Assembly: GCF_001904745.1 (NCBI RefSeq)
Contig: NZ_MRCD01000069.1
Span: 1 to 46,602, forward strand
Length of the DNA stretch: 46,602 nt
Origin: Calothrix sp. HK-06
GTDB taxonomy: Bacteria > Cyanobacteriota > Cyanobacteriia > Cyanobacteriales > Nostocaceae
Reading direction: 5' to 3'
The notes beneath the pieces are model-generated. The model saw only the letters and a list, made by a program, of their open reading frames with translations. It was not told the origin of the DNA and made no database searches. Both the position numbers and the translations under genes were made by a program. Shown here one piece after another: positions 1,707 to 7,324 of the stretch (positions are counted from its first letter, which is position 1; every line of letters starts with the position of its first letter).

Positions 1707-2627
1707 ATGAACCCCAACCCTCAAGACTCCCAAGAAAATGTAAAAATGCGGCGCCAACCTAAGCAAAAGCGTGGTCAAGAACGTGTTGAGCGAATTTTGG
1801 ATGCAGCAGTAGAAGTATTTGATGAAGTTGGGTTTGATGCTGCGACGATGAATAATATAGCTTTACGCGCGCAAACGGCTATCGGTTCCGTGTATCAGTT
1901 TTTTCCTGATAAACTAGCTATTTTTCAAGCTTTAGAACTGCGTCATCTTGAACGAGTTCATGCTGCCTGGACAAAACTTAGCACTCTTAATATTGCCGAA
2001 CTGCCATTTGAGACTTTTATCAAAACGATGTTAAAAATATTCAAAGAAATCTTTGACGAACCAACATCGCGGTTACTGTTCATTCAGTATTTCACTTCTA
2101 ACGCGATGTTCCAAACCATCGATGATAGTTTGACGCAACAAGGAATAGATTTCCAGGCAAAGCTACTACACGCACGCAACCCAAAATTGAGCGATGAAAA
2201 GTGTCAATTGATTGCCGAAATATGTGTTCAAGCTGCAAATGCTTTACTTGTAGTCGCCCTTCGCAAGCCAGAACCATGCCGTGAACAGATTTTTCAGCAA
2301 ATTGAAGAGTTAATGATTGCTTATCTACGTCCTTACGCTGGTGATGAGTTGATAAATGATATGCACAATGAAGTAATGAAGGTAATGATGTGTCCACACT
2401 GTAATTCCCGGCGCCTTTCTAAGAACGGACATCGGCATAGCAAACAGCGGTATCTTTGTAAAGACTGCGGAAAGCAATTTCTAGAAAGCTATTCCCCGTT
2501 AGGTTATAGCAATGATGTTAAGCAACAGTGTTTGGAGCAGCACAATAGAGGTATAGGATTTCGGGAAATAGAGCGGCAAACAGGTGTTTCCCACAACACA
2601 ATTATTAATTGGGTAAAGAAAAAATAA
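1707..2627 (+). CDS. TetR-family regulator fused to an IS1/InsA-like zinc-ribbon and HTH domain
   Basis: Residues about 21-70 are a TetR N-terminal helix-turn-helix (GFDAATMNNIALRAQ, then SVYQFFPDK, the family hallmark), followed by an all-helical ligand-binding domain to about residue 218. The reading frame then continues with no stop into residues 227-306. This part has a four-cysteine zinc ribbon (C229-x2-C232 and C251-x2-C254, with NGH and KQRYLCKDCGKQF) and a second HTH (GFREIERQTGVSHNTIINW). It resembles the N-terminal InsA part of IS1-type transposases. The DDE catalytic part is absent after the stop at 2627. TetR proteins usually end near 200-220 residues, so this is an extension. Two ATGs at 2385 and 2388 behind GAAGG could also start the 80-residue module separately. 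The gene diverges from the Rieske oxygenase, which it probably regulates (inferred). Confidence 0.85.
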   Translation: MNPNPQDSQENVKMRRQPKQKRGQERVERILDAAVEVFDEVGFDAATMNNIALRAQTAIGSVYQFFPDKLAIFQALELRHLERVHAAWTKLSTLNIAELPFETFIKTMLKIFKEIFDEPTSRLLFIQYFTSNAMFQTIDDSLTQQGIDFQAKLLHARNPKLSDEKCQLIAEICVQAANALLVVALRKPEPCREQIFQQIEELMIAYLRPYAGDELINDMHNEVMKVMMCPHCNSRRLSKNGHRHSKQRYLCKDCGKQFLESYSPLGYSNDVKQQCLEQHNRGIGFREIERQTGVSHNTIINWVKKK

Positions 2628-2998: not shown

Positions 2999-4915
2999 GT
3001 GATGAACTTGTTAGAATTGCACGAACAAGAAGTAAAGCTCAGTTCGGGTAACGATAAAAATATAAGTTTCAACCCAAGACAAACTGCTTATCCACGTCCG
3101 CAATTACAGCGACAGCACTGGCAAAGCCTAAATGGTCAATGGAAATTCGCATTTGACGATGAAGGGAAATGCACGAAACCGGATAATATCAAGCAGTGGA
3201 TTAATAATATCGAAGTTCCGTTCGCACCTGAATCTATCAAAAGTGGGATTGCTGATACGGGTTTTCATCCAAATTGCTGGTATGAGAGGGAATTTGAAAC
3301 TCCTCCCTCCGAGGGAAGACTAATATTACACTTTGGTGCAGTTGACTATCGTGCGCGCGTTTGGGTTAACAATCAATTCGTGGGAGAGCATGAAGGTGGA
3401 CATACATCCTTCTCGTTTGATATTACCGATATGCTTTCAGATACTGGCATCACAAAAGTAACAGTTTGGGCACATGATGACCCCCACGACTTAGCAAAAC
3501 CTCGTGGAAAACAAGACTGGCAACTGGATGCCCATAGTATTTGGTATCCTCGCACGAGTGGTATTTGGCAAACAGTTTGGCTCGAACGTGTAGGCGCCAC
3601 TTATATAGACCGCATCCAATGGACACCCCACATAGAGCGGTGGGAAATTGGTTTTGAAGCCTTTATTCAAGGTACACGCCAAGACGATTTACAAATCAAA
3701 GTAAAACTTAGCGTTGGCGATAATGTCTTAGTAAACGATACATATACAGTATTTAAAGGAGAAATTCACCGTCGTATTGCGCTTTCTGACCCAGGTATTG
3801 ATGATTACCGGAACGAGTTACTTTGGAGTCCAGAAAAACCAACTTTAATTGATGCTTCCATTCAACTCTGGGATGGGGACGTACTCTTAGATGAAGTCAA
3901 ATCATATACAGCAATGCGCGCGGTAGGAATTCAGCGCGACCGCTTTATGCTGAATGGACGCCCTTACTATTTACGCTTAGTTCTTGACCAAGGATACTGG
4001 GAAGACTCATTAATGACGGCGCCGAGTGATGAAGCGTTACGTCGTGATGTGGAACTAGTTAAAGCAATGGGTTTCAATGGAGTACGTAAGCACCAAAAAG
4101 TCGAAGACCCCCGTTTCTTATATTGGGCGGATGTACTAGGTCTATTAGTTTGGGAAGAAATGCCAAGTGCTTACCGCTTTACACCAAAAGCTGTAGAACG
4201 GATGACGCGCGAATGGACTGAAGTTATTAAGCGAGATATTAGTCACCCTTGTATTGTGGCATGGGTTCCGTTCAATGAATCTTGGGGAGTTCCCAATTTG
4301 ACCGAGACACCAGCTCATCGAAATTACGTCTTGTCAATGTATCACTTAACCAAGACCCTTGACCCAACTCGTCCAGTAATTGGTAACGACGGTTGGGAAA
4401 GCACCGATACAGATATTCTTGCTATTCATGACTATGACAATAACCCAACTACCTTGGCTAAACGTTATGGGGATGAAGTCAAGTTATCTGACTTGTTAAA
4501 TCGTGAACGTCCCGGAGGACGAGTTCTCACCCTTGATAACTATGCTCACAATGGGCAGCCAGTAATGTTAACAGAATTTGGTGGTATTGCTTACACCCAG
4601 GAACATGAAGCTAATAGCACTTGGGGATATGCCAGAAGTTCAAATATTTCTGAGCTACAAATGCGCTATAGCGGGTTGTTAACAGTAGTAAACCGCGTTG
4701 AAATGTTTAGTGGTTTCTGCTACACCCAGCTTACCGATACTTTCCAAGAGGCAAACGGGTTGTTATATATTGACCGTACACCCAAAATTCCAATTCAAGC
4801 AATCGCTAGTGCTACTCAAGGTCACGATTTGCAACACTCGGCAGCTCAAACCAACTGGTTAGAGTCAACATTAGTGCAAGAAACTGCTTATTGCGGTAGC
4901 GATGGTTGTAAGTAA
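2999..4915 (+). CDS. Glycoside hydrolase family 2 protein (beta-galactosidase / beta-glucuronidase type)
   Basis: A 638-residue protein with the GH2 order: N-terminal jelly-roll sugar-binding domain (around residues 25-200, starting LNGQWKFAFD), immunoglobulin-like domain, and TIM barrel. The acid/base glutamate is in FNESWG (about E427) and the nucleophile in LTEFGG (about E525). GH2 enzymes remove terminal beta-linked galactose, glucuronate, mannose and similar residues; the exact sugar cannot be read from sequence. No signal peptide is seen, so it should act in the cytoplasm. An AGGAG at 2988-2992 serves either the GTG at 2999 or the ATG at 3002; the ATG has the better spacing. It stands alone between spacers. 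A role in supplying galactose to the galT/galK/galE enzymes elsewhere in the window is only an inference. Confidence 0.85.
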   Translation: MMNLLELHEQEVKLSSGNDKNISFNPRQTAYPRPQLQRQHWQSLNGQWKFAFDDEGKCTKPDNIKQWINNIEVPFAPESIKSGIADTGFHPNCWYEREFETPPSEGRLILHFGAVDYRARVWVNNQFVGEHEGGHTSFSFDITDMLSDTGITKVTVWAHDDPHDLAKPRGKQDWQLDAHSIWYPRTSGIWQTVWLERVGATYIDRIQWTPHIERWEIGFEAFIQGTRQDDLQIKVKLSVGDNVLVNDTYTVFKGEIHRRIALSDPGIDDYRNELLWSPEKPTLIDASIQLWDGDVLLDEVKSYTAMRAVGIQRDRFMLNGRPYYLRLVLDQGYWEDSLMTAPSDEALRRDVELVKAMGFNGVRKHQKVEDPRFLYWADVLGLLVWEEMPSAYRFTPKAVERMTREWTEVIKRDISHPCIVAWVPFNESWGVPNLTETPAHRNYVLSMYHLTKTLDPTRPVIGNDGWESTDTDILAIHDYDNNPTTLAKRYGDEVKLSDLLNRERPGGRVLTLDNYAHNGQPVMLTEFGGIAYTQEHEANSTWGYARSSNISELQMRYSGLLTVVNRVEMFSGFCYTQLTDTFQEANGLLYIDRTPKIPIQAIASATQGHDLQHSAAQTNWLESTLVQETAYCGSDGCK

Positions 4916-5854: not shown

Positions 5855-5965
5855 TTATTCGACGATAATTATTATTGTATAATTTTATACAGTGATAATT
5901 ATATTAATTCTGAATAAATATTGAAAAATTGAAAATTTACAACTTTATACGCTCCTGTGGCTTCC

Positions 5966-7324
5966 ATGAATCTCGATTCTCTGCTTGAACTTATTAACAG
6001 CAAGCTAATTGCTATCCAAAGCCGCCCTCTTAATTGGGCAGAACGTTTGATTGTGCGGGGAATTTGGCATGATTGGAGTTATAACCAAATGGCTACTGAG
6101 GGGGGTTATAGCCCCGGATATCTTTCTAATGTTGTGGCGCCTCCTTTGTGGCAAAGACTGTCTATACTTATTGATAGGCGCCTGACCAAAAAAAATTGCC
6201 GTGGGCTGCTCTTAGACTACGCGGCTAGTTTGAATGCAAAAAAAATGCAATCAGAGCAACTTTCTACTAGCTTAAGAGAGAATGTTAACTTAGATATGTT
6301 GCCTTGCTTCCCTAGTGGCTCAGTTCCTCTTGGCTCTCCTTTTTATATTGAAGATTCTTCTCTAAAAAATATTATTTGTCAAGAGATTATTAAAGCAGGC
6401 GCCTTGGTGACAATTAAGGCGCCTAGAGAAATGGGTAAAACCTCACTACTGCTGAGAATTTTAGACTATGCGAACAGTATCAATTACCATACAGTTAGCT
6501 TAAACCTTGAGCAAGTTGACTCAACAATTTTGAGCGAACCAAATCGCTTCTTGCGCTGGTTATGTGCTAGTGTAACTCGTCAGTTGCAACTCAAAACAAA
6601 ACTAGACGAATATTGGGATGAAGATTTAGGCAGCAAACTTAGCAGCACCTTATACTTTCAAGATTATCTGCTAGAGCATATAGATTCTCCTATCGTCTTG
6701 GCTTTAGATGAGGTGAATAAAATATTTGAGTATCCTACGGTAGCAAAAGAGTTTTTACCTTTACTGCGCTCGTGGTACGAAGAAGCTAAAAGACTACCGA
6801 TATGGCAAAAGCTGCGTATAATTATAGTCAAGTCAACTGAGATATATATTCCCTTAAAGCTGAACCAATCGCCTTTTAATGTGGGACTACCAATTGTTTT
6901 AAATGAGTTCAATATAGAACAGGTACAGCAGCTAGCCCAACGTTATAAACTCAACTGGAGGGACGACCAAGAAGCAAAACTTTTGATGGTAATGGTTGGA
7001 GGACACCCCTCACTAATACATACAGCAATCTATCATCTTAGTGTTGGCAAAATTAATCTAGCACAACTGTTAGAAACCGCTCCTACATCTACCGGAATTT
7101 ATTCCCACCATTTACAGCGTCTTTGGGCTATTTTGCAAGAACAGCCAAACTTGGCTCTGGCTCTTTATCAAGTCATAAATAACTCCCAACCCGTACAATT
7201 AGAACCAATTTTGGCTTATAAGTTAAAAAGTATGGGGGTGATTAAATTATATGAAAATAAAGCCACACTTAGTTGTCATCTATATTGGCAATATTTCCAG
7301 AAGCACATAGCGATTGAAAAGTAA
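5966..7324 (+). CDS. AAA_35-type ATPase with N-terminal vWA-MoxR-associated HTH-like domain
   Basis: A 452-residue protein. Residues 1-90 (LNWAERLIVRGIWHDWSYNQ, then PPLWQRLS, TKKNC) match the small helical domain found at the start of cyanobacterial vWA-MoxR-associated and AAA_35 proteins. The P-loop is APREMGKTS at about residues 152-160, a variant Walker A without the first glycine that is normal in AAA_35, and the Walker B is ALDEVNKIF near residue 246. The remainder is the helical lid region. Such proteins are thought to act in signalling or conflict systems, but their activity is not established. I choose ATG 5966; a GTG lies in frame at 5957, and neither has a good ribosome site. It lies 146 bp upstream of the giant kinase whose C-terminus carries another AAA_35 domain, which suggests a functional pair. 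Confidence 0.8.
   Translation: MNLDSLLELINSKLIAIQSRPLNWAERLIVRGIWHDWSYNQMATEGGYSPGYLSNVVAPPLWQRLSILIDRRLTKKNCRGLLLDYAASLNAKKMQSEQLSTSLRENVNLDMLPCFPSGSVPLGSPFYIEDSSLKNIICQEIIKAGALVTIKAPREMGKTSLLLRILDYANSINYHTVSLNLEQVDSTILSEPNRFLRWLCASVTRQLQLKTKLDEYWDEDLGSKLSSTLYFQDYLLEHIDSPIVLALDEVNKIFEYPTVAKEFLPLLRSWYEEAKRLPIWQKLRIIIVKSTEIYIPLKLNQSPFNVGLPIVLNEFNIEQVQQLAQRYKLNWRDDQEAKLLMVMVGGHPSLIHTAIYHLSVGKINLAQLLETAPTSTGIYSHHLQRLWAILQEQPNLALALYQVINNSQPVQLEPILAYKLKSMGVIKLYENKATLSCHLYWQYFQKHIAIEK

Follow-up and report, generated by a model that had tools for sequence, protein, structure and literature searches.

A cyanobacterial TetR-type regulator with a putative auxiliary DNA-binding tail derived from an IS1 transposase

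The gene at positions 1707-2627 (+ strand) of the window, which is the whole 46,602-nucleotide stretch of DNA from Calothrix sp. HK-06 analysed here, encodes in a single stop-free frame a protein of 306 amino acids, with orthologues found, in which a TetR regulator is followed by a zinc ribbon and a helix-turn-helix (HTH) of the IS1 type. The reading that we judge modestly favoured is that of a TetR-type repressor of the adjacent oxygenase gene, with a C-terminal auxiliary DNA-binding foot that would go back to a single ancient capture from an IS1 transposase.

The initial annotation had described a TetR frame continuing without a stop into a ribbon with two CxxC pairs and a second HTH, both of the IS1 type, and matches to Pfam and NCBIfam agree with this description. 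The TetR part contains a TetR_N DNA-binding domain (residues 30-76, 1794-1934, + strand; PF00440, 5.3e-15) and a TetR_C_15 domain (residues 104-207, 2016-2327, + strand; PF17918, 3.4e-15), both above the Pfam cut-offs, so that the N-terminal HTH and the all-alpha C-terminal domain that define the TetR family are present. Behind a flexible linker (residues 213-226, 2343-2384, + strand), with pLDDT below 50 at residues 217-225, come an IS1/InsA-type zinc ribbon (residues 227-262, 2385-2492, + strand; NF050000, 7e-14), with cysteine pairs C229/C232 and C251/C254, and an IS1-type HTH of three modelled helices (residues 263-305, 2493-2621, + strand). Residues 229-305 correspond to positions 1-78 of the 199 in the NCBIfam model of the IS1 transposase (NF033558, 1.2e-22). 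The score against this model, 80.8 bits, lies under its whole-protein cut-off of 100 bits, as expected because the DDE half is absent, and the IS1/IS1595 zinc-binding domain (NCBIfam) scores 52.1 bits against a cut-off of 28. The absence of a DDE part, also proposed earlier, was borne out by tblastn with an IS1 transposase (L144) as query, which revealed no DDE remnant in the window: it matched 2361-2621 (6.8e-34) and otherwise gave two chance-level matches (E 1.5 and 6.4). Compared with PDB sequences, the tail gives weak matches only, mostly to eukaryotic zinc fingers (best 1.3e-4), and PADLOC found nothing. The junction codes for VMK repeats (VMKVM at 2373-2390 of the window, VMKVMKVMK in L045), as if short tandem duplications had occurred at the fusion point.

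Structure prediction, which had been suggested as a check, gives a consistent picture. The AlphaFold2 model built from a 52-row alignment (A3) has a mean pLDDT of 82.4 and a pTM of 0.60, and shows a confidently predicted TetR fold, joined by a linker of low confidence to a separate module comprising the ribbon (strands at 237-259) and three helices (269-305), which lies behind the low-confidence residues 217-225. The 50 PDB matches listed by Foldseek for this model are transcriptional regulators, most of them titled as TetR-family, and include EthR, EthR2 and DesT.

The same architecture was sought in other genomes, and the fusion proved to be real and conserved. With an identity threshold of 45% to the query, the TetR family of the window protein is present at 45 loci in 44 of 145 family genomes, and at most of these loci the frame runs into the ribbon, which rules out an artefact or a sequencing error that removed a stop. 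Across the sample of the phylum, matches at 1e-40 occur in 15 of 386 genomes, and several cyanobacterial families have the fusion tail. A contig scan, of which the best 80 of 450 relatives were kept, and 45 further loci yielded, once L125 (which runs off its contig) and L132 (with an early stop) had been dropped, 109 distinct proteins: 56 with a ribbon only, 25 with ribbon and HTH, 5 with a winged helix and 23 plain. In a tree of the TetR part (108 rows, tail excluded, L068 omitted as partial, rooted by midpoint on the plain-TetR side), 88 rows of this set, which includes the best 80 of 450 relatives, fall on one side of a 100/100 branch, and the other side holds 20 plain TetR proteins. Within the 88-row clade of the same set, 55 members carry the ribbon, 25 ribbon and HTH and 5 the winged helix, and 3 are tail-less. 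The tree implies seven changes for ribbon plus HTH (at least five of them forced by starred branches), nine for the ribbon (at least six forced) and two for the winged helix. The latter (SRRTLQR...) takes the place of the zinc ribbon in L076, L080, L090, L107 and L117, and the AlphaFold2 model of L080 supports it with the order H-H-H-E-E. Several long, deep rows (L041, L106 and the Chamaesiphon rows) carry the HTH; ribbon plus HTH therefore looks ancestral, with repeated trimming of the HTH, the deep branching order being weakly supported. A ribbon-only ancestor with later gains of the HTH is not favoured, given these same rows.

The proposal that an InsA-type DNA-binding module was captured from IS1 also stands, on the strength of the NCBIfam match and of the conserved fusion in relatives. 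In a module tree of 67 rows and 79 columns, which uses 14 of the 56 ribbon-only rows, a 100/95 branch parts all 40 TetR-borne modules from 18 IS1 copies, four solo open reading frames and five other fusions; left out were 12 IS1 rows whose module was divergent or truncated and 12 loci lacking a regular-expression match to the module. A single ancient capture from IS1 is the favoured explanation of this pattern. Multiple captures from different IS1 copies are not favoured by the one-sidedness of the 100/95 branch, although only 79 columns contribute to it. The tail is 55% identical to an IS1 copy in its own genome, which holds one fused copy, and up to 59% identical to an IS1 copy among the family matches listed.

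The tail is under purifying selection. NG86 estimates of dN/dS for four ortholog groups drawn from 18 rows range over 0.05-0.23 in the ribbon, 0.05-0.17 in the HTH, 0.06-0.14 in TetR_C and 0.00-0.17 in TetR_N (residues 25-80), and over 0.39-1.47 in the linker. The four ribbon cysteines are invariant, and in the 56 ribbon-only proteins the residues K, N, G, R, K, Q and Y are each conserved to 96-100%, the mean net charge being +5.8. The ribbons of 18 IS1 copies have a mean net charge of +5.4 and show H in place of Y in 55%. Since zinc binding alone would not need these non-cysteine residues, their conservation suggests a nucleic-acid-binding surface. Purifying selection, together with the survival of basic ribbon residues after loss of the HTH, favours a role for the tail as an auxiliary DNA-contacting foot.

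The genomic context identifies a candidate target. A Rieske oxygenase gene (587-1579, - strand; PF00355, 3.2e-15) lies upstream and divergent, and a homologous divergent neighbour occurs at 54 of 58 named family loci, 50 times as the next open reading frame and four times one frame further (frames of at least 80 aa counted). Three loci have a cytochrome P450 instead (L121 and L131 by Pfam, L123 by membership in the same BLAST cluster), which in L121 is about 1 kb off with two small open reading frames between, and L106 has a divergent upstream FAD aromatic-ring hydroxylase; all 58 loci hence have an oxygenase, of three unrelated kinds. No Rieske match was found at the loci of the 20 plain outgroup rows (25 loci, L119-L143, searched), and the single match among L119-L143 was at L125, whose TetR gene runs off its contig. 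TetR-type regulators less than 200 bp from a divergent gene usually repress that gene, according to PMC3511530, and the oxygenase gene is probably the target of the fusion regulator; the intergenic regions of some relatives, longer than 200 bp, count against this argument. In one genome of the same genus (G138, L235) about 1.55 kb separate tetR from the Rieske gene (96.7% identity), as opposed to the usual 0.1-0.3 kb, and both operators are still beside tetR. Downstream of the fusion gene, the window encodes a GH2 protein (beta-glucuronidase/galactosidase-like, 2999-4915) and an AAA_35 ATPase (5957-7324).

Sequence comparison of the divergent intergenic regions reveals a candidate palindromic operator, TATGA-N8-TCAY, of provisional register. 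In the window, operator B (TATGAGCTTATACTCAC, 1641-1657, + strand, followed by ATTTGTCAA to 1666) agrees at 11 of 11 core positions and is the only exact pattern match in its own genome, and operator A (CATGATGAAAAATTCAT, 1610-1626, + strand) lies 31 bp further upstream, matches weakly (9 of 11 core positions) and has a counterpart at the same spacing in G138. On the minus strand, TTGACA and TATTTT, separated by 18 nt (1637-1666), form a promoter-like element, a pattern that is weak alone; three such elements were found, against a shuffle mean of 1.0 (sd 1.0). The TGTCAA flank of the operator recurs across intergenic regions, and TTGACA on the minus strand fits the -35 box of an oxygenase promoter, with operator B within the spacer. 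The motif has 157 sites in 84 intergenic regions against 8.2 expected from mononucleotide shuffles, having been defined by inspection of the same 84 regions, two of which (L038 and L068) belong to the same gene. Two or more sites occur in 68 regions, one in 15 and none in one; pairs are mostly 26-35 bp apart, with 40 bp in L085 and far ones in L023 and L069, and some third matches, located 20 bp further along within the gene, are probably due to chance. One clade has operator B overlapping the start codon of tetR. De novo palindromic expectation maximization ranked TTCACA-nn-TGTGAA, in another register, first and TnTGA-N8-TCAnA second, for which reason the register is given as provisional.

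Over 145 whole genomes, the exact pattern TAYGASN6YTCRYNTTTGTCAA has 41 matches, against two for the reversed pattern, and every one of the 41 is located upstream of a TetR gene, at a distance of no more than 183 bp. These genes are those of 38 of the 45 family loci (the pattern is absent from the other seven) and three module-less paralogues, in whose neighbourhoods no Rieske match was found. Many of these loci served to design the pattern, which makes their recovery partly circular; this does not apply to the lack of matches elsewhere. In the genome of the window, a search with a related pattern that tolerated up to two mismatches found an exact match at 1641-1666 and a second match with two mismatches, against two matches for the reversed control. 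The same operator accompanies proteins with ribbon and HTH, ribbon, winged helix or no tail, as well as the three module-less paralogues; the three tail-less family members keep two operators, and the P450-linked loci L123 and L131 carry the same one, no operator being seen within 700 bp in L106 and L121. The operator has thus remained unchanged through trimming, exchange and loss of the tail, and hence the tail does not appear to be needed to choose the promoter. Most likely, the TetR part reads the operators.

We therefore envisage, as a working model, that TetR dimers would bind one or two of the predicted operators (usual spacing 26-35 bp), which lie within the oxygenase promoter spacer and next to or across the start of tetR, so that both genes would be repressed, and that a ligand, probably the oxygenase substrate, would release the repressor. 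The zinc ribbon, with or without the HTH, would swing on its flexible linker and make extra contacts with the operator flank or a neighbouring site, which might raise affinity, dwell time or cooperativity and would not confer a new promoter target. That the tail is under selection and, where exchanged, has given way to other DNA-binding folds makes a tethered auxiliary DNA foot the simplest reading. PMC12428005 reports that in E. coli IS1 the zinc finger and the HTH are both required for end-specific binding, and a bare ribbon would by analogy most likely add non-specific or flank contacts. The HTH itself, lost several times without visible change in the operator, may have a small role.

Other readings of the tail have to be weighed against this one. 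The initial annotation had proposed that capture of the module could provide the repressor with a second target site; IS1 ends or other promoters would be candidates. An intact ribbon and HTH under purifying selection in the ribbon-plus-HTH clade, and the end-specific binding that the same two motifs provide in E. coli IS1 (PMC12428005), speak for it, but for this promoter the proposal is not supported: the operator is the same whatever the tail, 55 of the 88 clade members do without the HTH, and the TetR operator pattern matches nothing else in the 145 genomes, a search that tests that motif alone. Moreover, when 14 of the 84 upstream intergenic regions were scanned with four IS1 end sequences from two genomes, an IS1-end-like score above the best of 20 shuffles was obtained in one (L066) and not in the other 13. 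We consider a second target, which may lie elsewhere in the genome, unlikely overall, and the same holds for the notion that the four-cysteine ribbon acts as a metal or redox sensor tuning repression of an iron- or flavin-dependent oxygenase. The invariance of the cysteines, the redox nature of the linked enzymes and the persistence of the ribbon after loss of the HTH would all suit a sensor, but the basic and polar non-cysteine residues are nearly as conserved, and a winged helix replaces the ribbon in two lineages with the operator unaltered.

Less probable still is a neutral remnant of an IS1 insertion, to which the relaxed linker, the repeated loss of the HTH and the three members lacking the whole tail might point; the low dN/dS of ribbon and HTH, the near-invariant ribbon residues and the occurrence of the tail in several cyanobacterial families make it highly improbable. 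About equally improbable is the production of two proteins, the full-length fusion and a free ribbon-HTH, as had been put forward on the basis of internal ATGs at 2385 and 2388. Both are present in frame in the window, with AAGG upstream, and among the first 18 of the 52 rows of alignment A3, all with ribbon and HTH, the ATG at 2385 is kept in 17, as expected of an ancestral IS1 start codon. Yet the second ATG occurs in 1 and AAGG in 2 of these 18 rows, so the claim is not supported, and in ribbon-only relatives the internal product would be only about 35-60 aa long.

In eukaryotes, host regulators that took DNA-binding domains from transposases are well known, and FHY3/FAR1 and SETMAR likewise reuse the DNA-binding part of a transposase in a host protein; here, it is a bacterial repressor that has gained the module as a tail. 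To our knowledge, clear, old and conserved bacterial captures with a recognisable operator and target are rare, and our search of the open-licence PMC literature found no paper on the TetR plus IS1-module architecture, though one may exist. The fusion protein shares with TetR/AcrR repressors (PF00440) the N-terminal HTH, the all-alpha C-terminal domain, a divergent target and, as predicted from sequence, paired palindromic operators like those of tetR/tetA (PMC3511530), and differs from them in its extra C-terminal DNA-binding module behind a flexible linker. With InsA and the N-terminus of the IS1 transposase it has in common a colinear zinc ribbon and HTH; unlike the transposase, it has no DDE domain and occurs as one fused copy in its own genome, with the module tethered to a repressor and inherited with it. 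Of the 14 upstream regions scanned (of 84), 13 gave no IS1-end-like score above shuffles. In Mce3R of Mycobacterium tuberculosis, as PMC11667970 describes it, a TetR-type chain bears two unlike DNA-binding motifs and has two operator sites, from which it follows that such a chain can carry both. The second motif of Mce3R is, however, another TetR-type HTH and its sites are nonpalindromic, whereas the fusion has a transposase module and, by Pfam, a single TetR_N stretch instead of two TetR domains per chain. Since the natural variants, whether with ribbon-HTH, ribbon alone, winged helix or without a tail, have one operator and one kind of target in common, they make it possible to test directly what a one-domain repressor gains from a second DNA-binding module.

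The IS1 module is also borne by other proteins, met as examples and not through a full survey. An IS1 ribbon-HTH tail, truncated directly behind the HTH, forms the C-terminus of a Rep_1 replication protein (L158:284-1600, G051), an ECF sigma factor (L159, G021), members of a second TetR family (TetR-B; L161/L162, G093 and G065) and a C5 DNA methyltransferase on a plasmid of Pseudanabaena sp. PCC 7367 (L194:1529-2758, NC_019690, P0002); no match for the L161 module was found in the phage collection. Among the 145 family genomes, the sigma fusion is found in one, leaving aside a row from G117 at 35% identity that reaches residue 297, and the TetR-B fusion in two genomes of one genus, where the IS1 module stands in the place of the ribbon-helix-helix-like segment seen in others. 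All nine readable of ten other TetR-B loci (L210-L212, L214-L219; four genera) end in such a segment, and one of these tails scores 22.6 bits for RHH_1 in Pfam against a cut-off of 20.5. These cases lead us to put forward, tentatively and with slightly less than even confidence, that cyanobacterial TetR repressors have in their C-terminus a socket that takes interchangeable DNA-binding feet (IS1 ribbon-HTH, bare ribbon, winged helix, ribbon-helix-helix), that the InsA module of IS1 has repeatedly been passed on to unrelated proteins that handle DNA (two TetR families, an ECF sigma factor, Rep_1 and a C5 methyltransferase), and that this module can be pared down to a 35-residue zinc ribbon working as a stand-alone DNA foot. 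Lastly, four genomes contain solo open frames of 94-120 aa (L150, L152, L154 and L156) that encode a divergent IS1-type ribbon-HTH with no DDE part and form one clade (100/95); these are possibly free-standing domesticated InsA-like proteins.
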